DNA from: a virus
Length of the DNA stretch: 42,465 nucleotides
Virus record (IMG/VR): IMGVR_UViG_3300008952_000104
Location: 1-42,465 of that record
Direction: 5' to 3' (one strand)
Under the pieces are notes generated by a model. It saw only the letters and a list, made by a program, of their open reading frames with translations. It was not told where the DNA came from and made no database searches. This document shows positions 1-31,216 of this stretch, in pieces (the stretch's first letter is position 1; every line of letters begins with the position of its first letter). The translations under genes and the position numbers were made by a program.

Positions 1-328
1 CAGCCATTTCTTTAGCAAATACAGGGATATTCTTTTTAGCGGCTAATCCCGGCTCAAGAACATCATAAGTTTCTGCAAACTTTTCTGCGGGTATTGGCCA
101 GTTTTCGCCTTCTGTGCCCGTCATAATAGCATCACCAGCTATAGCACTAACTGGACCTTCTTTGGTTTGGATTGTCTCGTCTGTCTCTGCAACTCTATAT
201 TCCAAAGGAATGGGTTTCTTGGCTGTTTCAAAAGCATCAGGATCATCCGCTAAGTTTGGATTTTCATCTAAACCGATTGTTTCATTTAAATATATATATT
301 GTCGCCAATTTTCAAATAGTCTATTCAT
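1..328 (-). CDS. Tagged PGDYG-like protein, 3' part missing (runs off left edge)
   Basis: The visible 109 residues start MNRLFENWRQYIYLNE, an A-type N-terminal signature (Trp followed by an aromatic/aliphatic stretch and Leu-x-Glu). The body then reads EYRVAETDE and GDAIMTGTEGENWPIPAEKF. That GD...TG..GE.wP....F pattern resembles small PGDYG-type domains, in which a protein or nucleotide cofactor may be handled; I only claim resemblance. The start at 328 is supported by GGGAG seven bases upstream. The C-terminus lies outside the window. The signature suggests virion packaging (inference). Confidence 0.7.
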   Translation of the reverse strand, partial: MNRLFENWRQYIYLNETIGLDENPNLADDPDAFETAKKPIPLEYRVAETDETIQTKEGPVSAIAGDAIMTGTEGENWPIPAEKFAETYDVLEPGLAAKKNIPVFAKEMA

Positions 329-344
329 TTTTTAACTCCCTTGT

Positions 345-554
345 TCATTTATCAAGCCTCCTAATTGTATAATGACACCACTCTTGCAATTTGGCTGACG
401 TGTTAGAAAGGTTCCACTTTTTGGGGACTTCGCAAATTGGCACTAATGCATGAAACAAAAAAATAAACCCACGAAATATCAATGTTAAGCCAATCCTGCC
501 TGCAAACAACAAATGATTTAGATATGTTTCATTATTTTTTTTTAGATGATTCAT
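345..554 (-). CDS. Small DUF6356-like protein
   Basis: A 69-residue protein beginning MNHLKKNNETYLNHLLFAG, followed by a hydrophobic segment (IGLTLIFRGFIFLFHALVP) and a C-terminal NTSAKLQEW stretch. This pattern matches my memory of the DUF6356 family, found in bacteria and marine phages; its function is unknown. The hydrophobic part around residues 15-45 may be membrane-associated. The start at 554 is chosen because its ATG overlaps the TGA of the upstream gene (ATGA), the usual coupling in this window. Confidence 0.6.
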   Translation of the reverse strand: MNHLKKNNETYLNHLLFAGRIGLTLIFRGFIFLFHALVPICEVPKKWNLSNTSAKLQEWCHYTIRRLDK

Positions 555-907
555 GTTTTGTATTTCCACCAAGAATATCGTTTTCTATTTTTTAAATAGT
601 TAACATCATGTTCATTGTGGTAAGCCTCTTTTTCAAAAATATTATTATAATAGGCCGTCCTGCCATTTTTATATTTGACTAGGCCAACAAGCCAAAACAG
701 CCCATACAATACCCACTGAAATACAAAAAGAAGCTCCAATTGTTGTTGAAAATGTATTGTTTCATGTCGTCTAGTCGAGTCAGATATGCTTCCCCTGCAC
801 CACACCCACAAACCAAAGCTTATTGCATTGATGTTAATCGGAGCAAAAAAAGATGCCCATATTGGTAGTTTACTGTTTTCAAATATAAATGGTTTCCACC
901 TTTTCAT
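551..907 (-). CDS. Small membrane protein with HETIH motif
   Basis: A 118-residue protein with two hydrophobic stretches (about 20-35 and 58-78) and the motif RRHETIHFQQQLEL between them. HExxH is the zinc-binding signature of metallopeptidases, and the EKEAY near residue 95 could supply a third ligand, so a tiny membrane metallopeptidase is possible but unproven. The start at 907 is ATG overlapping the upstream TGA; an earlier TTG is ignored. The N-terminus KRWKPFIFEN resembles signature A (compare KRWKQFITEN of the Nudix protein), although here it may simply be part of the fold. Confidence 0.6.
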   Translation of the reverse strand: MKRWKPFIFENSKLPIWASFFAPININAISFGLWVWCRGSISDSTRRHETIHFQQQLELLFVFQWVLYGLFWLVGLVKYKNGRTAYYNNIFEKEAYHNEHDVNYLKNRKRYSWWKYKT

Positions 908-1122
908 CAATCACCAAATCCTGTTTTTTCATAGTATTCATCATCCTCATCCGGGTCAAGATAATCAGACGCGCTAGGATAAAAAGGAAAGTTGTTGAAG
1001 ATTGTTTCTTCTACTTCTTTTCTATGTTCAGGAGATAAAGAATCTTTTATTTCTCCATAGTTGCGCACTGCTTCGCCAAGCTTTAAGCTTCCCTTTTGAA
1101 ACTCAACACAAATTATACACAT
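907..1122 (-). CDS. Conserved small CxxC protein
   Basis: Seventy-one residues beginning MCIICVEFQKG, with a Cys-x-x-Cys at residues 2-5, a central helix (AVRNYGEIKDSLSPEHRKEVEE) and an acidic tail (DPDEDDEYYEK). I recognise the pattern as a conserved phage hypothetical, without a known function. The single CxxC could bind metal as a dimer. The ATG at 1122 has GGAAG about seven bases upstream. The gene is coupled to the HETIH gene downstream. Confidence 0.6.
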   Translation of the reverse strand: MCIICVEFQKGSLKLGEAVRNYGEIKDSLSPEHRKEVEETIFNNFPFYPSASDYLDPDEDDEYYEKTGFGD

Positions 1123-1124
1123 TA

Positions 1125-2438
1125 TTACACTTCCTTATGGTTTAGATATTTTCGCCAACCCTTAAATAATTGTTTCGTTTTTATCCCTGTATTTTCTTGC
1201 ATGACCGAGGCTTTGTGGTATCCCTTGGCGAGTTCGTCCTTCTTTTTTCCCACTACACCAATCAACTTGGTAGCCTCTTCCTGCGAAATTTCCCCCTTGG
1301 CAGCAAACTTCATCATTTGTTGCGTACCTCGATAGCTTATGATAGGATCATCAGGGTTTGATAGAAAAATTTCTTTTGCTAAATCAAAATCAACTGCGGG
1401 GTTGGCATGGATGTTTCGAACAATATATATATCATGAGTTGCTCTATAAAGTTTTTTAAGTGACTTTGAAGGTGTGTTGGGGTTTTTTGCAACATCTATT
1501 AGCGCCGTAGTAGGGAATGGCTCGCCGCTGTCATAGATGTCGACTATATCGGCTAAAACTTCTGGTGATGTTTTTGGATCGCTAGCTATCATAACATAAT
1601 GATACCTTTGCACAATTGGATATTTTTGTGGTATGTCTGTATCCATAACTGCGTTGTGAAGATAATTAAAAAGAGATGCTGAAGCATCTTTGTTGATAGG
1701 ATGATCATTGATATCCATGAATTGCCCGGATCCATAGTGAAATTGCCATCTTTCATCGGCGCCGCCCGCTTTGTTTTCAATATAGATCAACGGATCATCT
1801 TCACTATAATAATCTGAAAAATAATCTAGGCCGGGCGCAGCTGTGCACCAGTCTGTTCCTTTTCCGAGTTCGCATGCCGCTCCCTTATTGTGCAAAGCTG
1901 CTATATATAACTCGCCATCGTGCCTAAACACCTCTGTACCTTCTTCTGCATCAAGATATTGTTTTTCTTTTTGTGCTGCGTGAATATCGTCTTTTGCCTC
2001 GTCTACCATTCTTTGAAGATCATCGATTGTTTTGACACTCATCAAATCCTGTTGAGGCATAAATCGCTGATGGTGGAAAAAAGCCTCGAAGTCATCCCAA
2101 AGTCTGCCATATTTTGAGCCTCTAGAGGAGGTATCGCCATCTATAAAAGCTTTGGTCACTTTGAAATCTTCTTTGGCGAGCTTTCTTAACCACAAAACCG
2201 CTGTACCTTTTTGATTGTCGGTTAGATCATCGGGCACTGCTTCTAGAAGCCAATCTTTGAATTGTTTGTGCAACCATTCTTTTGGCTCTTTAACCCGGCC
2301 ACCATAAAGCTTTTTCATTTCATATTCATAGTTCTTTATGATTTTAAGCGTACCTTTGGAATTTAGAATCTCCTTTGCATCTGCAAAGGAGACTTCATTT
2401 AAAAGATGTTTACGCCAATTTTCAAATAATAATTTCAA
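1125..2438 (-). CDS. Tagged 437-aa protein with W-C-T-A domain and NP repeats
   Basis: The N-terminus MKLLFENWRKHLLNE is a clear A-type signature. Residues about 180-260 hold a domain with ELGKGTDWCTAAPGLDYF...LIYI...WQFHYGSGQFMD, which shares its W-C-[TI]-[AS]-A core and following YF..Y with the 732-residue protein at 29018-31216. Residues about 285-375 contain degenerate repeats (SDPKTSPEVL, KNPNTPSKSL, ANPAVDFDL, SNPDDP) like the leucine-rich-variant helical repeats. The C-terminus carries a second signature-like stretch, FKGWRKYLNHKEV. Function unknown; virion location is inferred from the tag. Confidence 0.65.
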   Translation of the reverse strand: MKLLFENWRKHLLNEVSFADAKEILNSKGTLKIIKNYEYEMKKLYGGRVKEPKEWLHKQFKDWLLEAVPDDLTDNQKGTAVLWLRKLAKEDFKVTKAFIDGDTSSRGSKYGRLWDDFEAFFHHQRFMPQQDLMSVKTIDDLQRMVDEAKDDIHAAQKEKQYLDAEEGTEVFRHDGELYIAALHNKGAACELGKGTDWCTAAPGLDYFSDYYSEDDPLIYIENKAGGADERWQFHYGSGQFMDINDHPINKDASASLFNYLHNAVMDTDIPQKYPIVQRYHYVMIASDPKTSPEVLADIVDIYDSGEPFPTTALIDVAKNPNTPSKSLKKLYRATHDIYIVRNIHANPAVDFDLAKEIFLSNPDDPIISYRGTQQMMKFAAKGEISQEEATKLIGVVGKKKDELAKGYHKASVMQENTGIKTKQLFKGWRKYLNHKEV

Positions 2439-2889: not shown

Positions 2890-3101
2890 TTTTTTAAAGC
2901 CCTCAATTGTTTTTGTACTTTAGACATTTTTTTGTCCATCGTGTCTAGGCGCCTTTGTTGCATTGCATTTTCAGATTTTAACGCCTGTATATTTAGAAAA
3001 GCCGCGTTAATATCACTAGTGGTTGTATAATAAAAGCCCGCAAATGCAAATAAAAGCCCACCTAGAGCCATGGCCGTTTTTATATCCATATTGAACTTCA
3101 T
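2886..3101 (-). CDS. Single-TM coiled-coil protein
   Basis: Seventy-one residues: a short N-terminus, one TM segment (about residues 8-24, AMALGGLLFAFAGFYY), then a heptad-rich coiled coil (NIQALKSENAMQQRRLDTM and onward) to the C-terminus. Expected topology is N-in with the coil in the periplasm, as in i-spanins. The start at 3101 overlaps the upstream TGA (ATGA); a later Met at 3089 is possible. Confidence 0.6.
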   Translation of the reverse strand: MKFNMDIKTAMALGGLLFAFAGFYYTTTSDINAAFLNIQALKSENAMQQRRLDTMDKKMSKVQKQLRALKK

Positions 3102-3652
3102 GACACCAATGAATCCTTCCATGGCTCTTCTATAAATTCTTCATCAAATGACGGTACCGTACGATCAGTACTAGCCATTGTGGTGGCGCGCGTCCATGGT
3201 TCATCTATTTTTTTCTTTGTACCCGAAGAATAAAATTGATCAATTTTTTTACCCCTAGAAACTTCTGTGCCGCGTGTGCCCAGAGAGGAATTTACTATTT
3301 TTAAGTGTTCATGCCAATCTTGTAAAGACTTTGTTGGCACTTCATCTGTCTTTCTAGCCTTAAACCTATATGGAGTTTTATAAAATTTTAATGCCCTTTC
3401 TTTCGAATCAAATTCAAAATCTGGAGAGTTACCGCTCATCTTTTGCAAGGAAAATAACCAATGCTGCGCTTCTTTTTCATCTGTCTCTTGTTCTAATTTA
3501 TTAAAAATGTTTAAAAGAGCAATCTTCATTGCTGCATTTTTAGAAGGGTTTTCAATAATATCTTTTACATCTATTCTTGGAAATGACTCTCCAATATCTG
3601 GAAGTTCATATTCATTGAGAAATTTCCGCCAGTTTTCCAATATTAGTTTCAT
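3098..3652 (-). CDS. Tagged protein of unknown function
   Basis: A 184-residue protein starting MKLILENWRKFLNEYE, the cleanest A-type signature in the window. The remainder is hydrophilic, with a helical middle part (residues 40-75) and a basic, Ser/Thr-rich C-terminal third (RGTEVSRGKKIDQFYSSG). No known domain recognised. It heads the overlapping three-gene block with the TM-coil protein and the lipoprotein. A 63-base gap separates it from the only rightward gene. Confidence 0.6.
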   Translation of the reverse strand: MKLILENWRKFLNEYELPDIGESFPRIDVKDIIENPSKNAAMKIALLNIFNKLEQETDEKEAQHWLFSLQKMSGNSPDFEFDSKERALKFYKTPYRFKARKTDEVPTKSLQDWHEHLKIVNSSLGTRGTEVSRGKKIDQFYSSGTKKKIDEPWTRATTMASTDRTVPSFDEEFIEEPWKDSLVS

Positions 3653-4182: not shown

Positions 4183-4526
4183 CCCCCTTGGATATGGTTA
4201 ACCATGTTGGCCATATAATATATATTGCATGCTATATCAAAATGAATTAAAATAATTATAGAATATAATATTAAAAGGAGCACTATCAATCTATGTACTA
4301 ACTTAAATTCCTTGGCGTACCATAAGAATCCTATCCCTATGGAAACAAGAAGTAATTTTATAAGAAGAAAGGGAACTTCGCCCATCTCCAGCCACATAGC
4401 CATAAATGGATTAAGCTCTCTAGCATACCCGTTGCCAACAAAATACAATGTAGCAAAAGCATCGACAATATTCATCACAGCTAATATAATAAGCATTAAT
4501 GATATTGTTTTTTTGCTAAATTTCAT
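4179..4526 (-). CDS. DUF5658-like small membrane protein
   Basis: A 115-residue protein with three to four TM segments. The first segment carries NIVDAFATLYFVGNGYARELNP, matching the D..aTl..v..g...E.NP pattern of DUF5658-type proteins (unknown function). The next segment has KLLLVSIGIGFLW. The start at 4526 overlaps the stop of the big VWA lipoprotein upstream (ATGA); the upstream extension in the same frame is not needed. Translation is thus coupled to the lipoprotein gene. Confidence 0.6.
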   Translation of the reverse strand: MKFSKKTISLMLIILAVMNIVDAFATLYFVGNGYARELNPFMAMWLEMGEVPFLLIKLLLVSIGIGFLWYAKEFKLVHRLIVLLLILYSIIILIHFDIACNIYYMANMVNHIQGG

Positions 4527-6796
4527 GGTGTGGGCTGTGTTTTTTGTTTCTTTCCGCCGCATGCGGTTTCATCTAGAATTTCTAGAAGATTGTTATACAT
4601 AGTAATGGCTTTCATCGTTAGAGGATATAATTTCCCACCAATTCCAGCTTTTGTTAACGCATCATAATTGTCAGCTGAACCAAAGTCTATCAAAAACTGC
4701 TGTGTAAAAGCATAAATTGCTAACTCATCAGCGACATTGATCATATCAACCAATATTGTTTCAGTAATAGCAGGATCAACATAAGATTGTCCTTGCTCAT
4801 CGGAAAATAAAATAATTACATGTTTTGCGTCCTCGCGCCAGCTAATATCCCATTGCTCTTTCGGCGGATTAGACTCGACTGTTGAACCGCCATAGCCACT
4901 TTGGGAGCCCCACTCTAAGTCAGCTATATTATAGGGCAGCGCTGCTGCACCTACCAAATTTTGAATCGCTAAATATATGGCATCATAATTTTGCTCGTCA
5001 CCACCAGACAATGAAAAGCCAGAATTTTGAAAAGAATTCATAAAGGTGGTAAAATCAACTAAATCCGTTTGTAATACAACTTGTTCACCCCACACCCCTC
5101 CTGAAGTTGCCGAGGCAGTAAATACAAGACCCCATTTTATTACGTCTGAGTCACTATAATACGTAGCAAATTTATTTAAAGCAGTCATGACAGCATTTAT
5201 CTCTTCGAACATGGAACCTGACAAGTCGACAATAAACAAAATGTCTGTGGGTTCTAATTCCTTGTCTTCGTCGATCTTTCCATCACAATTTGTATCAGTA
5301 CCGTTGCACAAATCTTCGGGCTCCGGAGTCACCTCACCTAAACAAAGTTTTTTAACAAACTGGTCATTGTCGTCGTAATTGCCCCACTTTCCTTCGTAAC
5401 ATGTCATTTCACCGGGGACACATATGCCAACCAGCATTGTTTTTGGAGGGCCGCTATAACATCCTGCAAAGAGGTTTTCATCTATTAACTGATTGCAATT
5501 GTCATCATGATTGTTACACTCTTCCGGCTTGATTTCGCCTAAATATTTGTCACATGTTGCGCCGGGAGATAGTGTTTGTGGAATCCAGTGGCAAACAGCC
5601 AAACATTCGGTCAATTGCAATTCCGAACAATTTGGGTCTGTGGGATCAGCACATTCACATGTTTTATAGCCCGCGCCACATACCAATGGACTTTCTTGAC
5701 ACTTAAACAAGGTGCCAATATCTTGCTTGGTACAAAGACAATCCAAGCCTTCATCTGCCTTACCATCGCAGTCGTCATCTAGACCATTACAAATTTCTTC
5801 TTTAGGTTGTTTGGCTGTACAAATCCATTGACCTCCAACACAATATTGTAAATTTTCTTCACAATCCGTGACACATTTTCCTACTAGGTCCTCATCGATT
5901 AGACCGTTGCAATCATTATCAATCCCATCGCAGATTTCATCATCTACTGGGCCGCACTTTCCACAAGCGTTTAGTTGTCCTTCGTCGATTTCACCATCAC
6001 AGTTATCATCTAAACCGTTGCAAACTTCTTCTGGTAGTTTTCCACAACCGCCGCATGCATTTGAAACATCTTCATCAATATCACCATCACAATCATTGTC
6101 GATTTGATCACAAATCTCTTCTTCTGGCTCTGGGCCGACGCATTTCAATACACCTGCTATACAAAAATTCTCGCCCGGGCCACATGCCTTTTCACAATCC
6201 CCCCAGTCTCCCTCATCAACGATGCCATTGCAATTATCATCGATATTATTACAAACTTCTTTAATATCGGAAAAGCCCTCATCGGTTTGGCCGTTACAAT
6301 TATCATCCAAACCATTGCATTCTTCGGGCTTGCAATCAGATACACAGTCCGTATAATAGATGTGGCCCTTATCGCAGGTTTTATCTTTTGTGCCGGGATA
6401 TCCGTCCTTTGTGATACAATCTATGCCAGTTTCTAAAATATGAGTGGTGGGATCGCATTCTAATAGCTCGATGCACTCTCCCTCTAAAACAACAGAGGGG
6501 GGATCCGTACAATGATCAATACAGATTTCTTTTTGCCACACCTCATCAAGCGGAGGGCAAAAATAATAATCACATTTTATGCAATCTTGTTCGTAGGTGT
6601 CTTCTTCAAGGGTTTCTTCTATATCTTCGAAAATATCTTCAGCAATATCTGGTTCTTCGATATCTACGGTTGGATACACTGGTTGCGGCTCTTGCTCTCC
6701 TTTTCCGGCGCCATCATTAGTGCACGATATCATAAAGAACAAGAGAATAAGAAAACCAAATACTAAATACGCTATTCTCTTGAGCGAAGGCGTCAT
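4523..6796 (-). CDS. Lipoprotein with MopE-type repeats and a VWA domain
   Basis: A 757-residue exported protein. The signal ends at the lipobox FMISC (Cys25). An acidic linker follows, then about eight Cys/Asp repeats of the type CNGLDDNCDGEIDE (about residues 155-510), as in MopE-like putative metal-binding motifs common in Myxococcota; each probably binds calcium. From about residue 515 a von Willebrand A domain begins with DILFIVDLSGSMFEE (MIDAS DxSGS). Such architecture suggests surface adhesion or host-surface modification. GAGG nine bases before the ATG supports the start. It is unusual cargo for a phage. Confidence 0.85.
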   Translation of the reverse strand: MTPSLKRIAYLVFGFLILLFFMISCTNDGAGKGEQEPQPVYPTVDIEEPDIAEDIFEDIEETLEEDTYEQDCIKCDYYFCPPLDEVWQKEICIDHCTDPPSVVLEGECIELLECDPTTHILETGIDCITKDGYPGTKDKTCDKGHIYYTDCVSDCKPEECNGLDDNCNGQTDEGFSDIKEVCNNIDDNCNGIVDEGDWGDCEKACGPGENFCIAGVLKCVGPEPEEEICDQIDNDCDGDIDEDVSNACGGCGKLPEEVCNGLDDNCDGEIDEGQLNACGKCGPVDDEICDGIDNDCNGLIDEDLVGKCVTDCEENLQYCVGGQWICTAKQPKEEICNGLDDDCDGKADEGLDCLCTKQDIGTLFKCQESPLVCGAGYKTCECADPTDPNCSELQLTECLAVCHWIPQTLSPGATCDKYLGEIKPEECNNHDDNCNQLIDENLFAGCYSGPPKTMLVGICVPGEMTCYEGKWGNYDDNDQFVKKLCLGEVTPEPEDLCNGTDTNCDGKIDEDKELEPTDILFIVDLSGSMFEEINAVMTALNKFATYYSDSDVIKWGLVFTASATSGGVWGEQVVLQTDLVDFTTFMNSFQNSGFSLSGGDEQNYDAIYLAIQNLVGAAALPYNIADLEWGSQSGYGGSTVESNPPKEQWDISWREDAKHVIILFSDEQGQSYVDPAITETILVDMINVADELAIYAFTQQFLIDFGSADNYDALTKAGIGGKLYPLTMKAITMYNNLLEILDETACGGKKQKTQPTP

Positions 6797-6864: not shown

Positions 6865-7221
6865 CTAATACTTTGATATTAATGTTGGATAGGATACAAA
6901 TCTTACTGATATAACCTTGTCTCCTTCCTGATCCTTAATCTTTAGCATTTGTGTTTTTAAAAAGGCTTGATATTGAGACAATAATCCTTTGGGTGGGATA
7001 AATTTAACATTTAAAGTTATTGTTTTTTGGTCCTTTGAGATTTTCTTAACTTGGCTGCCTTCTTTGATTTTTACGATAGTAACTCCCGGGATTGCTCGTA
7101 ATTTATTGAATACATCGCCGTATACTGACATTTCTGCTGCATATTTTAACTTTATTTCGACTTCGAAGTGTTTTCCGGACTCTAAAAGAAAATTATCCCA
7201 TTTTTTTAGTATTTTTTGCAT
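6865..7221 (-). CDS. Tagged small alpha/beta protein
   Basis: A 118-residue protein with A-type signature MQKILKKWDNFLLESG. The rest alternates strands and helices (FEVEIKLKYAAEM, VFNKLRAIPGVTIVKIKEG, TITLNVKFIPP, QYQAFLKTQMLKI, VISVRFVSYP), consistent with a ferredoxin-like fold such as a small regulatory or nucleic-acid-binding domain. No specific family recognised. No clear ribosome-binding site is visible before the ATG; it follows a small Pro-rich gene by 14 bases. Confidence 0.6.
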   Translation of the reverse strand: MQKILKKWDNFLLESGKHFEVEIKLKYAAEMSVYGDVFNKLRAIPGVTIVKIKEGSQVKKISKDQKTITLNVKFIPPKGLLSQYQAFLKTQMLKIKDQEGDKVISVRFVSYPTLISKY

Positions 7222-7464: not shown

Positions 7465-8049
7465 TTAAGCCCCTCCGAAGCCTGCAGGTGCGCTTTTTCC
7501 GCGTTTATATGAGGGATTTTGTTCAAAAGGCGGTGTTTTTTTCTTATTTCCGCCCATGCCAATGTTCTTTTTCTTTAATTTGGGGTGTTTTTGCCTAATA
7601 TCTGTTTGATAATCCTCATCGATGGTGCTTTTTTCCTCAAAAGCGCTCTTAATGGCCGATTTTTCGTCCGGAGGCATATCATAATTGCTTAAATTCTCTA
7701 TTTTTTCCCATTTATGTTCTGAATGTTCTGCCGGATCAACGTTAATATCCCCAGAATAGCTTTCGGCGCTAAAAAAATGTATATTTTTTTCTTTTTTAAC
7801 CATTTTTAAGCCACGTACGTCCAATCCAGACTCTTCTTTGGTCTCTCTTGCGGCGCCATCTATGATTTTTTCCCCATTTTTAACATGGCCACCCGGAATA
7901 TTCCAATAACTTGGGTATTTTGGAGCATCATGACCCCTTTTCATGATCAAAACCTCGTTTTTTTCATTAAAAATGACAACTTTTCCTATTCTGTCGGAAT
8001 CATTATCGTCATTTTCTGTTATAAATTGTTTCCAGCGCTTGTAATACAT
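7465..8049 (-). CDS. Tagged Nudix hydrolase
   Basis: A 194-residue protein. The signature MYYKRWKQFITEN (residues 1-13) precedes a Nudix domain whose box runs from GGHVKNGEKIIDGA to ARETKEESGL, retaining REx2EE. Nudix enzymes hydrolyse nucleoside diphosphates linked to another group, such as oxidised dNTPs, NAD-type cofactors or RNA caps; the substrate cannot be told. A basic Gly/Pro tail (about residues 160-194, KSAPAGFGGA) is extra. The start at 8049 is chosen because it follows the upstream stop directly and because of the tag; the longer in-frame reading is rejected. If the tag is cut, the mature enzyme starts at Asn13. Confidence 0.85.
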   Translation of the reverse strand: MYYKRWKQFITENDDNDSDRIGKVVIFNEKNEVLIMKRGHDAPKYPSYWNIPGGHVKNGEKIIDGAARETKEESGLDVRGLKMVKKEKNIHFFSAESYSGDINVDPAEHSEHKWEKIENLSNYDMPPDEKSAIKSAFEEKSTIDEDYQTDIRQKHPKLKKKNIGMGGNKKKTPPFEQNPSYKRGKSAPAGFGGA

Positions 8050-8053: not shown

Positions 8054-8431
8054 TTACCAAGGGTTTGTTGCTTCATCTTCCAATCGACTGTAGTGATCGG
8101 CACGTGCCGTAGATTGAAGCACATCCATCACTTCAGAAAAATCGACATATATCTCGTCTTCGTGAGTTGCGTTATATTCTTCAACAGCGTCGTCTAAAAG
8201 TGCTGCCATGTCTTCATCTTCGAAATTTGAAGATTGCAATATTTCTGCGGCGATTTCTTGAGGAAGCCTATATTGGCCGCCTTGAGTTACAGAAGCTTGT
8301 TGATCATTGGCTTCCCACTCTTGTTGCAGTCTATTTTTAAGTTTTTCAAACTTCCTTGCAAAGCTTTCTGTCAATATTTTTGTATATTCTTCTTTAATAA
8401 GTTGCTTAAGCTTTGCTTTTGTTAGTTTCAT
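8054..8431 (-). CDS. B-tagged acidic protein (copy 1)
   Basis: A 125-residue protein starting MKLTKAKLKQLIKEEY. A helix rich in Lys/Gln follows (ESFARKFEKLKNRLQQEWE), then an acidic body (EDEDMAALLDDAVEEY; DEIYVDFSEVMDVLQ). No domain recognised. It is the most downstream of the five B-signature genes at 8.05-9.96 kb and is separated from the next by one base. Confidence 0.65.
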   Translation of the reverse strand: MKLTKAKLKQLIKEEYTKILTESFARKFEKLKNRLQQEWEANDQQASVTQGGQYRLPQEIAAEILQSSNFEDEDMAALLDDAVEEYNATHEDEIYVDFSEVMDVLQSTARADHYSRLEDEATNPW

Positions 8432-8432
8432 A

Positions 8433-8726
8433 TCACATTGCCCCTCCGAGGTCAGCTAGTGATTTGCCAGAATTTTCTCGTGCAAATGCGTCCAGTTTTG
8501 CTTTAAGTTCGTCCATGGACAAAGTTAGTGGCTGAATATCATCCCACCCGGTATAATCGTCATAAATCCAGTCGCCCACTGCCGCTTCCAACGCTGCACC
8601 AACTTTGTTTTTAAAATCAATTTTAGCACTGTCTTCTCTATCCGCTGTTTCCCGGCTGTCGTAGTCTTCCCAAATTTTCAATTCTTCCTTAATGATTTGT
8701 TTAAGTTTTGATTTGGTTAGTTTCAT
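8433..8726 (-). CDS. B-tagged acidic protein (copy 2)
   Basis: Ninety-seven residues with MKLTKSKLKQIIKEELKIWE at the N-terminus and an acidic alpha-helical body containing two Trp (GDWIYDDYTGWDDI). Only the first 16 residues are shared with its neighbours; the rest is unrelated, as expected for a module put on different cargo. Confidence 0.65.
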   Translation of the reverse strand: MKLTKSKLKQIIKEELKIWEDYDSRETADREDSAKIDFKNKVGAALEAAVGDWIYDDYTGWDDIQPLTLSMDELKAKLDAFARENSGKSLADLGGAM

Positions 8727-22495: not shown

Positions 22496-22496
22496 G

Positions 22497-22715: not shown

Positions 22716-22746
22716 GCATCGTTCCTTTTCAATTGTTTCTATAGGT

Positions 22747-22775
22747 ATTATCTCAAAGATTTATGATTTTGTCAA
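22747..22775 (-). promoter_or_regulatory. Sigma70-like promoter P10
   Basis: TTGACA (22775-22770), 17 bases, GATAAT (22752-22747), leader CCTATAGAAACAATTG with AAAAGGAA. Drives the acidic-protein operon. Confidence 0.8.
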
Positions 22776-22953
22776 GAAGTTTTTTTGTTTTTTTCGCTAA
22801 TGATGTACCAATACTTCTTAAGGCTGGCTTTTATTCTGCCGTTTGCTAGCAAAATTCTAACTGCGTTGTCGTGCTCGGCAATGACCATGCCAATTTTATT
22901 TTTGTTCCCTCGCATAAGCTCGGCTCCATTTTAGCCAAATCACCCACTTCCAT
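22772..22953 (-). pseudogene. SH3-like gene with apparent -1 frameshift
   Basis: From ATG at 22953 (GGAG six bases upstream) the frame reads MEVGDLAKMEPSL, a family start, but then loses similarity and stops. In the -1 frame from about 22915 the family body continues: MRGNKNKIGMVIAEHDNAVR, ILLANGRIKASLKKYWYII. Either a frameshifted gene, a programmed slip, or a separate 47-residue gene starting at 22915, which also has GGAG eight bases upstream. Confidence 0.5.
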
Positions 22954-23176
22954 TTGTATCTCCGATATTAGCTGGGCTAATCAATTTTATTTCATTCTCC
23001 GCCACATATACATGGTGTGTGCCCGTAGTACTGCCGCGCGGATCAATAACATAAAGTACGTAATCGTGATATCCACTCCAGCCCGTGCACTTTCTTATTA
23101 CTATTCCCCTCTTTCCCGCGCACCAGCCGACAATGCTTTCAGGTGCTTCAATTTTTACCATATCACCAATATTCAT
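22940..23176 (-). CDS. SH3-like small protein
   Basis: Seventy-eight residues: MNIGDMVKIEAPESIVGWCA, GKRGIVIRKCTGWSGYHDYV, and VAENEIKLISPANIGD. The longer His/Tyr-rich loop is distinctive. It overlaps the next gene by 14 bases. Confidence 0.6.
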   Translation of the reverse strand: MNIGDMVKIEAPESIVGWCAGKRGIVIRKCTGWSGYHDYVLYVIDPRGSTTGTHHVYVAENEIKLISPANIGDTNGSG

Positions 23177-23191
23177 GCGTATAATATTATT

Positions 23192-23422
23192 TTAGCCACT
23201 ATTAAGCTCAAAGGGGCAATGGCCACCGGTTTCTTCGAAATATTCCCAGTAATCCTCTAGAAATTTTCTAGAAGACGTGTTATATTTTTGCATTAAACTT
23301 TCGATTACTATTTCTCTTAAGTCTCGTACCGAGATGTCTCGCACAATGGTACGAGCCATTATTTCGCGATTATCCATCGTGTTTTTGGGAATTGCTAGCT
23401 TGTCTTTTTTCTCTGTTGTCAT
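23192..23422 (-). CDS. Small helical protein
   Basis: Seventy-six residues: MTTEKKDKLAIPKNTMDNRE, IVRDISVRDLREIVIESLM, KFLEDYWEYFEETGGH. AGAGGA seven bases before the ATG. Similar in style (helices followed by W.yFee) to the protein at 22497-22715. Confidence 0.55.
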   Translation of the reverse strand: MTTEKKDKLAIPKNTMDNREIMARTIVRDISVRDLREIVIESLMQKYNTSSRKFLEDYWEYFEETGGHCPFELNSG

Positions 23423-23486
23423 GGCGTTGTCCTCTTAATAATATATATGTTCTAGAACATTTATCCCACGAAAAGCCTAGCAACTC

Positions 23487-23711
23487 TCATTTACAGAGTC
23501 TAGAAAGTACCACCACATCAGAGCGCCGGTTCCATGAGTCAGTGCATGGGACGGAGCATCCCGGCAAACCAATGATGGGGGCGCTCCAGCTTATATGCAC
23601 ATCAATACCCCTCTTGTCTGTTACAATGCCGATGTGGCGCGCGCCATCTTTTGAATGCCAGAGCACCAGATCGCCAACATCAGGCCGACATGTCTTTCTC
23701 GAATTTCTCAC
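23487..23711 (-). CDS. SH3-like small protein (GTG start)
   Basis: Seventy-four residues; an N-terminal RNSRKTCRPD leader, then VGDLVLWHSKDGARHIGIVT, DVHISWSAPIIGLPGC, SDVVVLSRLCK. GTG start with AGGATAA upstream. Confidence 0.6.
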   Translation of the reverse strand: MRNSRKTCRPDVGDLVLWHSKDGARHIGIVTDKRGIDVHISWSAPIIGLPGCSVPCTDSWNRRSDVVVLSRLCK

Positions 23712-23715
23712 TATA

Positions 23716-23892
23716 TTATTTATCCTGCTTGTCTTTGATCCGAGATAGAACTGAAGTAGTTAATTCGTTGACTTGTCCATTGACAAATAAAACCTTGGCA
23801 ATTTGATAGGGAAAAATAACAGTCGGTTCGCTAATTTCAACTATAACTCCAACCCCATTTATTTCATGACTCACCAAGTCGCCAACCTTCAC
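23716..23892 (-). CDS. SH3-like small protein (GTG start)
   Basis: Fifty-eight residues: MKVGDLVSHEINGVGVIVEI, VIFPYQIAKVLFVNGQVNE, then a helical tail (LSRIKDKQDK). Starts one base inside the stop of the Cys-tail gene (TAGTG). Confidence 0.6.
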   Translation of the reverse strand: MKVGDLVSHEINGVGVIVEISEPTVIFPYQIAKVLFVNGQVNELTTSVLSRIKDKQDK

Positions 23893-24125
23893 TAGTCACA
23901 TGCCCCGCAAAAACAACCGGGATTCGGGCACTGTGACATAACGGCCAAAACCTTGCCGCGCGCTATATCTTTAAGTAAATCAACAACCTCATCAATCCTA
24001 GGATGATCACCGTTTCGTACCCGAATGTTGCGAAGCAGCCAACGAGCATTAGTTTTGGTTGCTTCTTTCCGGATCGCTGGGATATCCATGTTGTTTAAAA
24101 TTTCAATTAGTTCATCAATTTCCAT
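23892..24125 (-). CDS. Helical protein with Cys cluster tail, leaderless
   Basis: Seventy-seven residues: MEIDELIEILNNMDIPAIRK, TNARWLLRNIRVRNGDHPR, then a C-terminal MSQCPNPGCFCGACD (four Cys) that may bind zinc or iron. The ATG at 24125 begins six bases after the -10 of promoter P11, so no ribosome-binding site is possible. Confidence 0.6.
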   Translation of the reverse strand: MEIDELIEILNNMDIPAIRKEATKTNARWLLRNIRVRNGDHPRIDEVVDLLKDIARGKVLAVMSQCPNPGCFCGACD

Positions 24126-24131
24126 ACACAC

Positions 24132-24160
24132 ATTATATCAATTGGTATCGCAATTGTCAA
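24132..24160 (-). promoter_or_regulatory. Sigma70-like promoter P11 (consensus), leaderless
   Basis: TTGACA (24160-24155), 17 bases, TATAAT (24137-24132); ATG at 24125 immediately after. It lies inside the 3' end of the upstream SH3-like gene. Confidence 0.75.
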
Positions 24161-24344
24161 GCTTTTCTGAAACTATTACCAACTCTTCCATCGGAAACCA
24201 TTGCGGCGTTCTGCTTTGGTTTCCGGATAGCCATTTGATTTGATAGTATGTTTTTCCTGATTGTGAATCATTGGCGGCTAGCACCACCCCGCAGCCATTG
24301 TTGGCATCAAAGAATTTGTGCCTTACTAAATTACCGACCTTCAT
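24138..24344 (-). CDS. SH3-like small protein
   Basis: Sixty-eight residues: MKVGNLVRHKFFDANNGCGV, YYQIKWLSGNQSRTPQWF, MEELVIVSEKLDN. ATG at 24344 with GGAGG six bases upstream; longer readings rejected. Confidence 0.65.
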   Translation of the reverse strand: MKVGNLVRHKFFDANNGCGVVLAANDSQSGKTYYQIKWLSGNQSRTPQWFPMEELVIVSEKLDNCDTN

Positions 24345-24504
24345 TGACAACCTCCAGCGTACGCCGCTGAAACCACATGGTATAGCTAGCGCACTGAAGC
24401 AGCGCCTGAACGGGGCCATGGGTGCGACTGTCGATTTCAGTCACAATTCCATAATGAGCACTGCCGTCCCTCCCAATATATTTAATTAAATCACCGACTT
24501 GCAC
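24331..24504 (-). CDS. SH3-like small protein (GTG start)
   Basis: Fifty-seven residues: MQVGDLIKYIGRDGSAHYGI, VTEIDSRTHGPVQALLQC, RRTLEVVNEGR. GTG directly after the upstream TAA. The final EVVNEGR is written by the next gene's ribosome-binding site and start. Confidence 0.65.
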   Translation of the reverse strand: MQVGDLIKYIGRDGSAHYGIVTEIDSRTHGPVQALLQCASYTMWFQRRTLEVVNEGR

Positions 24505-25008
24505 TTATACCACACTCGCCAAAATTTTGTCGGAATGCCACTTGATCGTACCGGGCTTGCACGTGATGGTTTCAATTTTGTTGTTAACGAACACGGTTAG
24601 TTCGTTGCGTCCGACCGCGGTTACAATCGCATGCTTTTTATTAACTGTAATCAAACTACCAACAGGCGGCAAGCCCTCTTCCGTCACGGTCACTGATCTC
24701 TCCATCTTCAAAAACGGGCGCTTCTGGCCGGATACTTTAAACATTTTATACTTGCCAACGGTGTGTTCATCGAGCACAAGCTTGACTGTTTTGGGCTTTC
24801 CGTTCAAAGAAGAATACTGTTTACCTTCAACTGTCCATTGTTTACCTTTTTTCGTAGCTTTCTCTACTTTAAAGACAATTGTACGATATTTGGGAAAAGT
24901 ATAATAAGTTTGAAGTTCGCCGTTTTGGCCCATAATGGCTTCTGCCCGAGGCTTGCTTCGACCCATTCCAAAACACCATTTTTTCATAAGAATATCGTTA
25001 GGTTTCAT
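24505..25008 (-). CDS. Beta-rich protein with C-terminal SH3-like part
   Basis: A 167-residue protein: MKPNDILMKKWCFGMGRSK, then a beta-rich domain (TIVFKVEKATKKGKQWTVEG, TVKLVLDEHTVGKYKMFKV) and a C-terminal PPVGSLITVNKKHAIVTAVG strand set like the small SH3 family. GGAG six bases upstream. Possibly a larger relative or fusion of the family. Confidence 0.6.
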   Translation of the reverse strand: MKPNDILMKKWCFGMGRSKPRAEAIMGQNGELQTYYTFPKYRTIVFKVEKATKKGKQWTVEGKQYSSLNGKPKTVKLVLDEHTVGKYKMFKVSGQKRPFLKMERSVTVTEEGLPPVGSLITVNKKHAIVTAVGRNELTVFVNNKIETITCKPGTIKWHSDKILASVV

Positions 25009-25018
25009 ACGGTACTCC

Positions 25019-25081
25019 TTATCGACCAGAGTCTTTCCAGATTAAGTAGCCCAAGGCTGTCAATACCAAAAATTCAAACAT
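25019..25081 (-). CDS. 20-aa hydrophobic micro-protein
   Basis: MFEFLVLTALGYLIWKDSGR: a single membrane-spanning segment with a short charged tail. GGAG seven bases before the ATG, directly behind promoter P12. The good ribosome-binding site makes it credible despite its size. Confidence 0.5.
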   Translation of the reverse strand: MFEFLVLTALGYLIWKDSGR

Positions 25082-25113
25082 GTTATAACTCCTTATTTAT
25101 AATTTCTACATAC

Positions 25114-25142
25114 ATTATCTCATAGAAATTACATGATGTCAA
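25114..25142 (-). promoter_or_regulatory. Sigma70-like promoter P12
   Basis: TTGACA (25142-25137) minus strand, 17 bases, GATAAT (25119-25114), leader ATGTAGAAATTATAAATAAGG. Drives the micro-protein and the 167-residue gene. Confidence 0.75.
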
Positions 25143-25151
25143 GAGTTTTTT

Positions 25152-25174
25152 AAAAAATAAAAAAGCGGGCCGCT
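25152..25174 (-). terminator. Possible terminator
   Basis: On the minus strand AGCG-GCC-CGCT forms a short GC hairpin followed by TTTTTTATTTTTT. The stem is only four pairs, so confidence is modest. Confidence 0.35.
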
Positions 25175-25192
25175 GTCCTCGTCGCGCCACAT

Positions 25193-25293
25193 CACCAGAC
25201 TCCTTTCAACCGGCTCTTAACCTATCCTTCAAGAGAGTCATTGAAGGTTTCCCATATAATTGTCATTTTGCGCGCGCCGCTGCTCACAAAAAG
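25193..25293. other. Short gap between operons
   Basis: About 100 bases without a convincing gene. A 14-codon ATG frame (MTIIWETFNDSLEG) lies in it but has no ribosome-binding site. Confidence 0.3.
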
Positions 25294-25464
25294 TTACCGC
25301 TTTTCTTTTAAAGATATATCATCGATATGCTCTAGCAATATTATATTTCCATATTGGACTTTTAGCCATTTTCTTCCAACAACTTTTACGACCTTGCCAT
25401 GGCCGTTCTCTAATAGCTTAAGTTTTATTAAGTCACCTACTTTAATCTTTTTTTCACAATCCAT
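25294..25464 (-). CDS. SH3-like small protein
   Basis: Fifty-six residues: MDCEKKIKVGDLIKLKLLEN, GHGKVVKVVGRKWLKVQYG, IILLEHIDDISLKEKR. GKVVKVVGRKWLKV is reminiscent of KOW-type RNA-binding motifs. ATG at 25464 overlaps the upstream gene by eleven bases; AAGG precedes it. Confidence 0.6.
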   Translation of the reverse strand: MDCEKKIKVGDLIKLKLLENGHGKVVKVVGRKWLKVQYGNIILLEHIDDISLKEKR

Positions 25465-25669
25465 ATACCTTCTCAATTCGCCACGCGGCTACGTCCACAT
25501 ATGGCCCAAGAAGCCCTTTCGAAGAGAAGGCAACACGGACCATTATTTTTTCTTTCATGGGATTCACTATTGCAGATGTATCGATAACCGTACCAACCAT
25601 GTCTGCATATTTCCTGAAAGAAATATTGTCTTCTCTATTAACAAACCTTACTTTGTCACCTATTTTCAT
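25454..25669 (-). CDS. SH3-like small protein
   Basis: Seventy-one residues: MKIGDKVRFVNREDNISFRK, MVGTVIDTSAIVNPMKEKI, VAAWRIEKVYGL. ATG at 25669 is preferred to a TTG four codons earlier. Confidence 0.6.
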   Translation of the reverse strand: MKIGDKVRFVNREDNISFRKYADMVGTVIDTSAIVNPMKEKIMVRVAFSSKGLLGPYVDVAAWRIEKVYGL

Positions 25670-25702
25670 ACTATCACACAATCCTATCTCAATTTATCCA
25701 AC

Positions 25703-25731
25703 ATCATAGCATACCTTTGATTCTAGGTCAA
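25703..25731 (-). promoter_or_regulatory. Sigma70-like promoter P13
   Basis: TTGACC (25731-25726), 17 bases, TATGAT (25708-25703). A slightly divergent member of the series, for the genes at 25669 and 25464; its -35 overlaps the 3' end of the upstream gene. Confidence 0.6.
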
Positions 25732-25935
25732 GCATATTTTTTTATTATTTTTTGCAGAACTTACCAAACACAAATCATCGTCATGTACCCACGTGCGAGC
25801 GCCATCGCCATTTTTTAACCATAAAACCTCATGGGGTTCGGCTAGCCAATCACACGAATGAACTACAATTCCAATTCGAGGCTCTTCGTTAAACAGGCGC
25901 CTTTGCTTGTATTGAACCAAATCACCAATTTTCAT
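25723..25935 (-). CDS. SH3-like small protein
   Basis: Seventy residues: MKIGDLVQYKQRRLFNEEPR, IGIVVHSCDWLAEPHEVLW, WVHDDDLCLVSSAKNNK. Starts inside the stop of the upstream gene (ATGA). Confidence 0.6.
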   Translation of the reverse strand: MKIGDLVQYKQRRLFNEEPRIGIVVHSCDWLAEPHEVLWLKNGDGARTWVHDDDLCLVSSAKNNKKICLT

Positions 25936-26527: not shown

Positions 26528-27118
26528 TCATTCGATACTCCTGCCTAGCTCAATCACGTCGCCATCGCTGAAGACCCAAAAGGCATCTGGTACATTTTGA
26601 TCAACTTCGAAGTTCATTTTACCTATCTCTTCGACTGCTTTTTTGATTCTTTCTGGCGTGCCGCGCTGTTGTTGTCTTCGGATCATTTCATTTTTATCCG
26701 GCGGAGAGCAGTAAACCAATATTAGATTCTTTCCTTCTCTCTCTGCAACATAGCGCAAGTCATCTGATCCTCTGCTGCCGTTGATGTTCGTGATGTCCGT
26801 GAGCATAACAGCTTTTCGGGCTGCTTTGAAATCATCGACATGTGTACCATAGTTGTGTCCTGCATAATGATTAACGTTAACTAACTCATCCTCATCCACT
26901 AGGTTTTGCCACTCTTCCTCTGATTTGAAATTGTATTCATCGTCAGACTCACCGCGCTTGGCGCGCGTAACGGTCGATTTTATTTCTTTCCAGCCCATAC
27001 TTATTAGCGTTTCTTTGTGTCTCGTTTTTCCACAACCAGAAGGTCCAAATATAGCTATTATAGTATTTGATTTGTTTTCTGTCAAGAACTTTTCCCACTT
27101 TTTCCAAATGTTTTTCAT
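26528..27118 (-). CDS. gmk: Tagged guanylate kinase
   Basis: A 196-residue enzyme. Signature MKNIWKKWEKFLTEN, then the P-loop IIAIFGPSGCGKT (about residues 20-32), the GMP-binding stretch STVTRAKRGESDDEYNF and the HYAGHNYGT loop typical of guanylate kinases, plus the lid RRQQQRGTPERIKKA. Reaction: GMP or dGMP plus ATP to the diphosphate. The 15-residue tag is not part of ordinary Gmk. Fits with IMPDH/GMP reductase and dUTPase in nucleotide supply, or with delivery inside the virion. Confidence 0.85.
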   Translation of the reverse strand: MKNIWKKWEKFLTENKSNTIIAIFGPSGCGKTRHKETLISMGWKEIKSTVTRAKRGESDDEYNFKSEEEWQNLVDEDELVNVNHYAGHNYGTHVDDFKAARKAVMLTDITNINGSRGSDDLRYVAEREGKNLILVYCSPPDKNEMIRRQQQRGTPERIKKAVEEIGKMNFEVDQNVPDAFWVFSDGDVIELGRSIE

Positions 27119-28668: not shown

Positions 28669-28688
28669 GTGTGAAATGAATTTCGCAC
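28669..28688 (-). promoter_or_regulatory. Imperfect palindrome, possible operator
   Basis: GTGTGAAAT and ATTTCGCAC form nine-base arms with one mismatch. TATAAT on the minus strand (28668-28663) follows directly with no TTGACA, so an activator-dependent promoter for the PAP2 gene is possible. Rest of the 145-base gap (28613-28757) is AT-rich and empty. Confidence 0.35.
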
Positions 28689-28757
28689 CCTTCATATATA
28701 ACTATGTGTTATTTTAGAAAAAAGTACATTTTACATAAAAATTTATTAAATAATTTT

Positions 28758-29021
28758 CTATTTGAAAACTTTTTGTTTACTGGTAAGGAATAACTTGGGC
28801 AGGAATGATTTTTTTAAACTAAGAAGTCTTTCGAATTTTGCCTTCTGTCTGGCGTCAATATATACGTTGCTGGGTTTTTTAATTTCGCCGTCGATAACCT
28901 GTTCACTAAAATCATAAAATTTAGATTTTTGATTCGGCGGTGCGGCGCCAGCCATGGCAAAAGTTGGTATTGTAACAGAGAGAACCAAAATAGCTGTCAT
29001 CTTTCTTAAGTGCGACATCAT
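28758..29021 (-). CDS. Secreted small protein
   Basis: Eighty-seven residues with a Sec signal peptide: MMSHLRKMTAILVLSVTIPT, FAMAGAAPP; cleavage after AMA. The mature part (FYDFSEQVIDGEIKKPSN, RQKAKFERLLSLKKSFLPK) resembles small myxobacterial-type exported proteins I have seen, unnamed. ATG overlaps the upstream TGA (ATGATG). Confidence 0.6.
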   Translation of the reverse strand: MMSHLRKMTAILVLSVTIPTFAMAGAAPPNQKSKFYDFSEQVIDGEIKKPSNVYIDARQKAKFERLLSLKKSFLPKLFLTSKQKVFK

Positions 29022-31216
29022 TTATTTTTTCCTATTCGAATTGTAATTCTCTTTCGTGGCATTGGGCCACATTCTTTAATCTTCTTTTCTTGTACCGGCG
29101 TTGAAGGATCCCCAAACTCTCTACGATATGCCATCTTGCCATCTTGTGCAGAGAGATTAAGCACTTTAAGTACGGCTGCCCTAGCGATATTGTGGAACGT
29201 ATCATAGTTCTCATCAAAGTGCGCGGTGAACTCGCCAACTGCTTGGAGTTGCGCCTCGCTAACATCTCTACCAACCGTAATATCAATGTTAACTTCTACT
29301 GTCCGTTTAGCAATGTCAAGCCTAGCAGAGTAAGGATAAAAGCGCACGGCTGCCGGTGTCACAAGTTGTTTAACTTTACCGGCAGGTATACCGGGCAAGT
29401 TCATTTGCTTCGCTGCGACCTCCTGCGCCTGTCGAAAAAAACCGCTTAATTGATCGAGCAATATGTTTGTTGCATGCGAATTGTTTGCACCACGATCAAG
29501 GTGATGGCCTCTAAAACTTTCTTGCCAGTAGGCAAGCATTTTGTTGCGCGGCGAATCTGGATCCGGCACACCAGTAGCCGACATGCCACCTTTAAGATTT
29601 CTCGTAAGACTCTGTGCAATTTCGGCAATCTCTGGCACTTTGAAGCTCATTGTGGTTCGATATTGAATCGTGCCACCGGAACTATCGATTGTGAAGTATT
29701 CCCACTTTCTGTCTCTCGCTTGGCCTCGTAACTTTCCGTATGGAGTCATTGAGGATACATCCACGACTCCATTGTCGATAAACAAATCAATTATGTCAAG
29801 GCGCGCCTCGACGTAGTTCTCTTCCATATTGGAAACGTTGTTAACAAAGGTTTGAAAGCCTTCTAGACCTTCGCTCTCATCGTAATCGGATGGATTAATC
29901 GTGAGATTCACATTATCGCCATAAACTTCTATTTCTTCTGGGTGAATATAGTGTGCATCGAGTATCTCACTTATCTCATCTTCTAAATCAGCCTCTTCAG
30001 CACTTCCGTCATCCACCCAGTCCAACTCCTCGAAGTCGAAAGACATGCTAGCGCTCCAGTACCACTTTCCGGGCTCATATTCGTCATAAGAAACGTCAGC
30101 ATACTCAAACTCGGCATTTGCATGAATCTCATCAAATTGTTCCGGCCGGGGACCAGCAGGATTGTCATATGAATGTTGGCTAGCCGAGGCTTCGATGTTG
30201 TGCCATGCATCTTGTACGAATTCACTCCACCACTCTTCGGGATCGTCGTCCTCTGTCCAGCCATCCTCTGTCATTGCGCGCACAAGCTCTAGATAGTGTT
30301 CTGGTTCATCCTCTTTGAACTGACCCTCTAAACTACCATAGCGCGTGTATTCATCATAGGCATTGACCGCTGCATACCCCACCAAATTGGTGGCGATCTG
30401 TTGTGAGATCTCATCTGCATCCATGGGGCTGTCTGTTGTGTCATACCCCTCTACGAATCCACCCTCACCGTAAGAATCTGGCTCATATACCAAGGCAATC
30501 TTTTTATAAGTTGGCCAGTCTTCGGTCTCGAAGTTCTTTTTATTTTTCATAAACACAAAATAAAACGCTTTGCCCTCGCTAGTGTAGTTATCAAAATAGT
30601 TTTGTGATTGTGACGCGGAAATGCACCAGCGAGTCTCGCGACCCCAAAAGCAAGAAGCTTGTGCGGTTTCCGGGCGCACCATCATAAAATTATTATCATC
30701 AATTAGAATTACTGAGTCTCGATGTGCGATTGCCTTTTCGCGTCTCGCTTGTTCTTTTTCTTGTTCTTTCCGTTGTTTTTTGTGGTGTGCGTTGTATATA
30801 ACCCTATCCAGCTTTCGTTTATCTTCTATCTTATAGATATCTTTATATTCTGCTTCGTCATCGCGAACATATGGTAACAATCTATGGTATTTTCTAACTG
30901 CGGTTGCGATATCATCCGCGCGCTGTTCGACAGACTCTCTCCAGTCTGGGTCGCCCTCTTCGCTTAAACCGTTCCGTTTCCACCTAGCCATATCATCAGC
31001 AAATTGTCTTGCCATCCACATAATATATTTATTGTTGCCAGATTCATCGTGTTTCGAAAAATACTTCAAGACCGGCATACCATCTATTGTTTCTTCAACT
31101 GCATCGGGATATTTCTTTGCGGCGTCATCGTAGCGACCTTCTATTAGAAGTTGTTCCAGCAATTGCAGTTCTGCGTCTAAAGTAAAGTTGTCCCAATTAT
31201 TAAGCTTAACTCGCAT
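29018..31216 (-). CDS. Tagged 732-aa protein with W-C-I-S-A domain
   Basis: N-terminus MRVKLNNWDNFTLDAELQL with a further LIEGR near residue 25. Residues about 45-165 are helical, including KKQRKEQEKEQARREKA. Around 175-250 FMMVRPETAQASCFWGRETR is followed by WCISASQSQNYFDNY and AFYFVFMKN, sharing its W-C-[TI]-[AS]-A...YF..Y core with the 437-residue protein at 1125. The C-terminal 400 residues are acidic and beta-rich. Probably a structural or injected protein. AAAGGGA precedes the ATG. Confidence 0.65.
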   Translation of the reverse strand: MRVKLNNWDNFTLDAELQLLEQLLIEGRYDDAAKKYPDAVEETIDGMPVLKYFSKHDESGNNKYIMWMARQFADDMARWKRNGLSEEGDPDWRESVEQRADDIATAVRKYHRLLPYVRDDEAEYKDIYKIEDKRKLDRVIYNAHHKKQRKEQEKEQARREKAIAHRDSVILIDDNNFMMVRPETAQASCFWGRETRWCISASQSQNYFDNYTSEGKAFYFVFMKNKKNFETEDWPTYKKIALVYEPDSYGEGGFVEGYDTTDSPMDADEISQQIATNLVGYAAVNAYDEYTRYGSLEGQFKEDEPEHYLELVRAMTEDGWTEDDDPEEWWSEFVQDAWHNIEASASQHSYDNPAGPRPEQFDEIHANAEFEYADVSYDEYEPGKWYWSASMSFDFEELDWVDDGSAEEADLEDEISEILDAHYIHPEEIEVYGDNVNLTINPSDYDESEGLEGFQTFVNNVSNMEENYVEARLDIIDLFIDNGVVDVSSMTPYGKLRGQARDRKWEYFTIDSSGGTIQYRTTMSFKVPEIAEIAQSLTRNLKGGMSATGVPDPDSPRNKMLAYWQESFRGHHLDRGANNSHATNILLDQLSGFFRQAQEVAAKQMNLPGIPAGKVKQLVTPAAVRFYPYSARLDIAKRTVEVNIDITVGRDVSEAQLQAVGEFTAHFDENYDTFHNIARAAVLKVLNLSAQDGKMAYRREFGDPSTPVQEKKIKECGPMPRKRITIRIGKNK

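Follow-up and report, generated by a model that had tools for sequence, protein, structure and literature searches.

The window analysed here, the whole 42,465-base stretch of an IMG/VR virus fragment (record IMGVR_UViG_3300008952_000104), carries genes with unrelated bodies that begin with the same short peptide, the W-tag (W-x-x-[FYH]-[IL]-x-E), as well as five adjacent genes (8054–9955) that begin with a different one, the K-tag (MK[LI]TKxKLKQ[IL]IKEE, with MNITK in one), which also ends in I-x-E (MKLTKSKLKQIIKEE). All the genes named run on the minus strand, and each open reading frame (ORF) therefore has its N-terminus at the high coordinate. A sequence-only reading of this stretch had described W-x-x-[FYH]-h-x-E starts on at least eight genes and proposed that a T4-like targeting and cleavage code acts on many cargo proteins. 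The signature is real: it is exact in six genes (starts 910, 3652, 7221, 8049, 11946 and 27118), has its L-x-E displaced by one or two residues in two (2–328, WRQYIYLNE; 1125–2438, WRKHLLNE) and is reduced to its aromatic half in another two (11933–12544, WDMYLNNQ; 29018–31216, WDNFTLDA). Of the variants listed in that reading, the one at 6865 is thus in fact exact, those at 1 and 1125 are the shifted forms and those at 11933 and 29018 the aromatic halves, and ORF 34713–36383, to which a weaker form had been assigned, carries no W-tag. The bodies behind the W-tags include PGDYG, NUDIX, nucleotidyltransferase, guanylate-kinase-like and PcfJ-like proteins and others of no recognized type. The tags in the window are as follows.

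281–328, minus strand: N-terminal W-tag MNRLFENWRQYIYLNE, L-x-E shifted by 2; PGDYG-domain ORF 2–328, which runs off the window
878–910, minus strand: W-tag (MMKRWKPFIFE; MMKRWKPFIFEN); ORF 551–910, TTG start, absent from the sequence-only list
1140–1169, minus strand: C-terminal tag copy (LFKGWRKYLN; LFKGWRKYLNHKEV), targeting half without the E; ORF 1125–2438
2394–2438, minus strand: N-terminal W-tag MKLLFENWRKHLLNE; ORF 1125–2438
3611–3652, minus strand: W-tag MKLILENWRKFLNE; ORF 3098–3652
7180–7221, minus strand: W-tag MQKILKKWDNFLLE; ORF 6865–7221
8014–8049, minus strand: W-tag MYYKRWKQFITE; NUDIX gene 7465–8049, whose true start is probably 8049, directly behind the preceding stop
8387–8431, minus strand: K-tag MKLTKAKLKQLIKEE; ORF 8054–8431
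8682–8726, minus strand: K-tag MKLTKSKLKQIIKEE; ORF 8433–8726
8921–8965, minus strand: K-tag MKITKSKLKQIIKEE; ORF 8732–8965
9489–9533, minus strand: K-tag MKLTKSKLKQIIKEE; ORF 9315–9533
9911–9955, minus strand: K-tag MNITKSKLKQIIKEE; ORF 9530–9955
11908–11946, minus strand: W-tag MKLVETWKEFLEE; nucleotidyltransferase ORF 11176–11946
12506–12544, minus strand: partial W-tag MKKLIENWDMYLN, without the processing E; HAD-like 5'-nucleotidase ORF 11933–12544
27077–27118, minus strand: W-tag MKNIWKKWEKFLTE; guanylate-kinase-like ORF 26528–27118
31181–31216, minus strand: partial W-tag MRVKLNNWDNFT; PcfJ-like ORF 29018–31216

Both partial W-tags have full counterparts in relatives, on proteins similar to the HAD-like 5'-nucleotidase and on the homologue L034 of the PcfJ-like protein (MKLLFENWRQYLNE).

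The W-tag pattern is far in excess of chance. Across the window and eight relatives, the motif occurred within the first 30 amino acids of 52 proteins, compared with a mean of 0.6 and a maximum of 3 in 200 rounds of shuffled N-termini, and its density was 1.8 × 10−3 per position in residues 1–15 versus 2 × 10−5 past residue 45. The [IL]-x-E followed W..[FYH] in 52 of 136 N-terminal cases, against 9 of 625 elsewhere (P = 5 × 10−34). In 85 genes selected solely on their sequence as far as the W, position W+3 held F, Y or H in 62 (background 10.5%) and W+6 held E in 48 (background 6.5%). From the shuffling excess and these two enrichments, we conclude that the pattern is real and position-specific. 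Tag copies inside one genome showed synonymous differences (pS) of 0.76 and nonsynonymous differences (pN) of 0.27 (motif-based selection biases pN downward and leaves pS unbiased); as synonymous sites are saturated and nonsynonymous sites are not, what is kept is the peptide and not the DNA. This saturation contradicts the idea that the tags are a DNA-level by-product, in which a recombination or duplication hot spot copies start regions and the peptide has no function. Tagged genes do often stand in tandem (for example, window 8054–9955 and 90738–94548 of the relative G001), and tandem transfer may be the route by which cargo acquire tags; but the bodies are unrelated and the tag also occurs at C-termini, and we regard the by-product explanation as exceedingly improbable.

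The K-tag had not been seen in the sequence-only reading, and with it tag swapping and C-terminal placement go beyond what that reading described. Each tag is found in loci selected for the other, with W-tags on 16 of 1,090 proteins in K-selected loci and K-tags on 31 of 1,009 proteins in W-selected loci. Over all loci fetched, there were 494 unique tagged proteins in 330 body groups, counting only starts confined to at most 45 codons from the first possible start codon of the ORF. Homologous bodies bear different tags (W versus K) in 17 pairs, some of which share a domain only (for example, L146 with a W-tag and L450 with a K-tag, 95% identical over a 93-amino-acid C-terminal domain). The W-tagged protein L063 is 58% identical over 158 amino acids to immuto35A_186 of the cultured Flavobacterium phage immuto, the start of which (MGKVNKAYIENIIKEILSEK) is K-like; on three of its genes, immuto carries a recurrent start of its own (MENFDLKKFLVENKLT or a near variant). 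A small domain (SAYASGAVVKCR...GWVDCNAPDGKGGYK) was also observed behind different tags in several phages (L063, L048, L045, L054 and L220:741–1211), with a DUF6321 match in L054. Separately, the window gene at 38116–38658 (minus strand) opens with the distinctive GSVRRFMKLASLQPLTEEF ahead of an acidic region, and a comparable start (SEQFKRMQ[FK]LAGIITES) recurs on two immuto genes; starts of this type are possibly a third tag type.

Placement varies as well as type. Copies of W[polar]x[FYH][IL] within the last 20 residues numbered 30 against 4.7 expected (a six-fold enrichment), or 16 against 4.7 when one large family was removed (P = 4 × 10−5). A family of ~800 amino acids has the tag at the N-terminus only in at least 7 members, at the C-terminus only in 12 or more, and twice, once at each end, in G001 146372; this dual-placement family had no Pfam match, and its predicted fold (predicted template modelling score 0.37) gave no meaningful match in the PDB. 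The window 1125 protein is likewise tagged at both ends. Most C-terminal forms (LVKTWKGFLNS-end) retain the aromatics and lack the E, so that targeting appears separable from processing, as in T4 mutants.

Using the protein of window 34713–36383 as lead, we recovered ten related contigs, of which the two large ones (184,913 and 112,058 bases) both encode homologues of the T4 prohead protease gp21 (Peptidase_S77, E ~1 × 10−33) and of T4 gp23; gp21 and gp23 of tagged phages pass Pfam cut-offs. In the larger relative (G001), five consecutive genes (90738–94548), ~15 kb from gp21, start KLILENWRKFLKE, KIIIENWRRYLKE, KLLLENWRLYLNE, ELIMENWRQFLNE and KLLMENWRYYLTE. An exact DNA pattern within the window alone was too strict; a 42-base degenerate W-tag pattern had at least 120 matches in IMG/VR (chance expectation from base composition <0.01), with 147 tagged ORFs in 85 body clusters among the matches listed, and a K-tag pattern likewise had at least 120. 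The sequence-only reading had named tags lacking a phage context as evidence against its proposal; none was found in 84,980 bacterial and archaeal genomes (257 Gb), in which the same strict W-tag pattern identified two contigs, both phage DNA. The first (15.9 kb) is full of both tag types and is evidently phage DNA binned with an Opitutia metagenome-assembled genome (MAG), and the second, ~13 kb long and akin to the window phage, lies in the 'chromosome' of a candidate division WOR-3 MAG (L226–L228, G038; CP070664.1, about 201,284–214,796). The WOR-3 piece, which is either a partial prophage or a chimeric assembly, holds GroEL, ClpP-like, PcfJ-like and W-tagged genes flanked by bacterial genes. 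Random viral DNA matched in amount (1.14 Mb) had no W- or K-tags in 1,037 proteins, tblastn of tag peptides against cultured phages, a method insensitive to 22-amino-acid queries, gave no match, and no account of these tags was found in the open-licence PMC papers searched. The tag bearers form a group of T4-like myoviruses that are uncultivated and for the most part marine.

In these phages, the tags are linked to gp21 and the capsid module. Among contigs of at least 125 kb, gp21 was present in all nine with W-tags and all nine with K-tags (18/18), versus one of three random contigs (P = 0.014, Fisher), and among those of at least 80 kb it was present in 13 of 13 K-tag contigs versus one of eight random ones (P = 7 × 10−5, Fisher). 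Genes flanking gp21 are themselves tagged, with W-tags in G018 (122477 and 123980) and K-tags in G002 (57496), G022 (118223) and G023 (168867), in the positions where T4 has gp67, gp68 and gp22. A conserved L-x-E was also found in the N-terminal region of all eight major capsid proteins (MCPs) read (LTEG, GLLEG, LLENQ, ELLRE or a near variant), with ELLRE or a near variant directly preceding the mature domain, and the MCPs have an LL.KW..TGLLEG segment in common. As T4 gp23, the MCP, contains AELLNKWKPLLEGEG, the W-tag may copy the capsid protein's own propeptide. Among genes near gp21, a near-N-terminal [RI]DPRYFL-x-E was further seen to be common to G001 109199–109747 and 96440–96994 and G002 56275–56886. 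A ClpP-like protein in the window (36664–37398, minus strand) matches PHROG families labelled 'head maturation protease', even though gp21 too is encoded in relatives, and Pseudomonas phage PA5oct likewise has both gp21 and a ClpP, the latter detected by mass spectrometry (MS). We do not favour the ClpP-like protein as the maturation protease because in relatives it lies far from the head genes, whereas gp21 sits in the gp22–gp23 neighbourhood.

Tags on core proteins adjoining gp21 could also be read as recruiting assembly or packaging factors to the prohead core, factors that are degraded or gone before the head is full and are not injected effectors, just as gp21 of T4 chops up gp22, gp67 and gp68, most of which is then lost from the head (PMC9026906). 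However, tagged genes are accessory and vary between phages (0 of 387 core genes tagged versus 76 of 1,107 non-core genes; P = 6 × 10−11), and SAM lyase, NUDIX and kinase domains fit cargo rather than assembly factors, which makes a role in assembly unlikely. Cargo Pfam matches, taken from an uncorrected list (316 proteins, 198 groups) that is inflated by internal methionines, comprised NUDIX, zeta-toxin-type kinase, protein kinase, 2H phosphoesterase (LigT), SAM lyase, HD, guanylate kinase, DUF192, M23 peptidase, SpoVR and DnaJ; a tail-sheath match was rejected as an internal-methionine artefact, and the majority of cargo had no Pfam match. The SAM lyase, NUDIX, 2H phosphoesterase and kinase cargo are plausible early effectors. 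Some cargo belong to nucleotide metabolism and would have their activity inside the cell, and amphipathic N-terminal helices can bind membranes, both of which would suit tags that address another phage-made or host structure (a replication compartment, the membrane or host RNA polymerase), with the L-x-E incidental. The E, however, is strongly constrained at W+6 and mostly lost in C-terminal tags, as expected of a separable processing residue, and this explanation sits poorly with the gp21/gp23 association and with tags on prohead-module genes; we judge it very unlikely.

Evidence on virions comes by homology from PA5oct, which encodes gp21. Two of its proteins, EST35_0205 (with window homologues 1125 and 29018) and the one encoded at 74417–75166 (a homologue of the W-tagged L135 family), are annotated as detected in virions by electrospray ionization tandem MS; its homologous NUDIX protein and its DnaJ-domain match were not MS-detected.

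Our preferred reading is that the tags are, with high probability, a diversified T4-type capsid-targeting and gp21-cleavage code loading hypervariable, probably injected proteins. The shared N-terminal peptide would be the T4-type capsid-targeting sequence (CTS) in variant form, in which the W and the F/Y three residues on, within a short helix, may dock the protein onto the prohead core and the L/I-x-E would be recognized by gp21 of the same phage, which would cut the tag off there as the head matures. The freed proteins would stay with the DNA and be injected at infection, and the K-tag (MKLTKSKLKQIIKEE) would do the same job and could replace the W-tag on homologous domains. The cargo is accessory and hypervariable, in the manner of the restriction-inhibiting internal proteins of T4. 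The inference made in the sequence-only reading is in this respect supported by the T4 CTS spacing, gp21 and gp23 in relatives, tagged gp21 flanks, the L-x-E of the MCPs, phage-only occurrence and hypervariable cargo. The data show the peptides and their spacing, the clustering of tagged genes, the link with gp21 and gp23, the tag swaps and the C-terminal copies; we infer packaging, cleavage and injection in the tagged phages themselves, and several observations weigh against doing so. The match to the T4 CTS is one of spacing and chemistry in a peptide too short to prove homology, and an N-terminal LxE was not significantly more frequent among MS-detected PA5oct proteins (13 of 93 versus 31 of 296; P = 0.06–0.23). 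No gp21 or structural module was found in the 42-kb window, itself a fragment, and only 11 of 21 W-tag contigs of at least 80 kb, also fragments, have gp21, a gap at smaller sizes that fits fragments in which the tag cluster sits far from gp21. Some cargo resemble plain metabolic enzymes (5'-nucleotidase and guanylate kinase), for which a benefit of injection is not obvious. Lastly, no T4-type late promoter (TATAAATA) was found upstream of tagged genes, a test that is uninformative because the motif is at chance genome-wide, for tagged and other genes alike.

More tentatively, and with considerable doubt, we suggest that the tags form a two-label, end-independent loading code, in which unrelated W and K peptides are interchangeable on the same domains and at either protein end, allowing plug-in effector loading (hundreds of families) in a T4-like clade, with the W-label derived from or mimicking the scaffold-binding propeptide of the MCP (LL.KW...LLEG). 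Injected proteins are known for few phages, and a loading tag that can be read from sequence would turn the question of what is injected into a search. The tags nominate candidate injected proteins by the hundred, most of them without a known function and some hinting at anti-defence enzymes, from abundant but uncultivated phages, and the variant tags and the C-terminal form, in which the targeting residues persist and the cleavage residue is mostly lost, would serve as natural experiments on T4-type cargo choice.

Three other features of the window were observed. At 12830–17482 and 21836–25935 (minus strand), ~19 small ORFs (55–93 amino acids) start M-[QK]-[VIA]-G-D-[LM]-[VI] and have a G-[IV]-[VI] core; they look KOW/SH3-like and make up a single small family that is greatly expanded in tandem. 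At 17936–20292 (minus strand), a MoxR-like AAA ATPase adjoins a VWA/metallopeptidase-like protein, and each has matches among phage-wide PHROG families. At 4523–6796 (minus strand), a putative lipoprotein of 757 amino acids has repeated CNGLDDNCDG motifs and a VWA-like domain, a bacterial cell-surface look that is unusual for a phage.

Among the closest known systems is T4, in which the ten residues MKTYQEFIAE of internal protein (IP) III suffice, positions 4 (Y4) and 7 (F7) governing targeting and 8 (I8) and 10 (E10) processing, as established by truncation and amber-suppression work, and gp21 cleaves after L/I-X-E (PMC9026906); T4 Ip1–3 are injected GmrSD nuclease inhibitors with the leader alone in common (PMC12373910). 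The W-tag has its W, F/Y, I/L and E spaced exactly like positions 4, 7, 8 and 10 and, like the CTS of IPI–IPIII, is a short N-terminal peptide on unrelated, hypervariable proteins of phages whose relatives have gp21 and gp23; T4 MCP AELLNKWKPLLEGEG and T4 gp21 LLIETW are closer to it than IPIII is. It differs in that the first aromatic is W and not Y/F, with KLLxEN usually preceding it, and in that there are two tag types per genome, C-terminal and double placement and many enzyme-domain cargo, with ~6–15 tagged genes in most large relatives read, and eight exact-plus-shifted W-tags and five K-tags in the 42-kb window, versus three IPs in T4. The packaged ADP-ribosyltransferase Alt of T4 has gp21-processed propeptides at both termini (PMC9026906), like window 1125 and the ~800-amino-acid family, whereas no protein scanned here had a Pfam ADP-ribosyltransferase match. 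In phage P1, N-terminal residues of DarB suffice for entry into the phage head (PMC9024508), as we read the W-tag, but that study found the Dar N-termini to have no consensus (PMC9024508), and P1 appears to be without a separate scaffold system. In phages of the phiKZ/SPN3US type, numerous proteins of the inner head are cleaved by the prohead protease behind a short motif whose last residue is E (PMC9026906); those proteases are diverged gp21 relatives in giant phages, whereas the phages described here have T4-type gp21 together with gp23.

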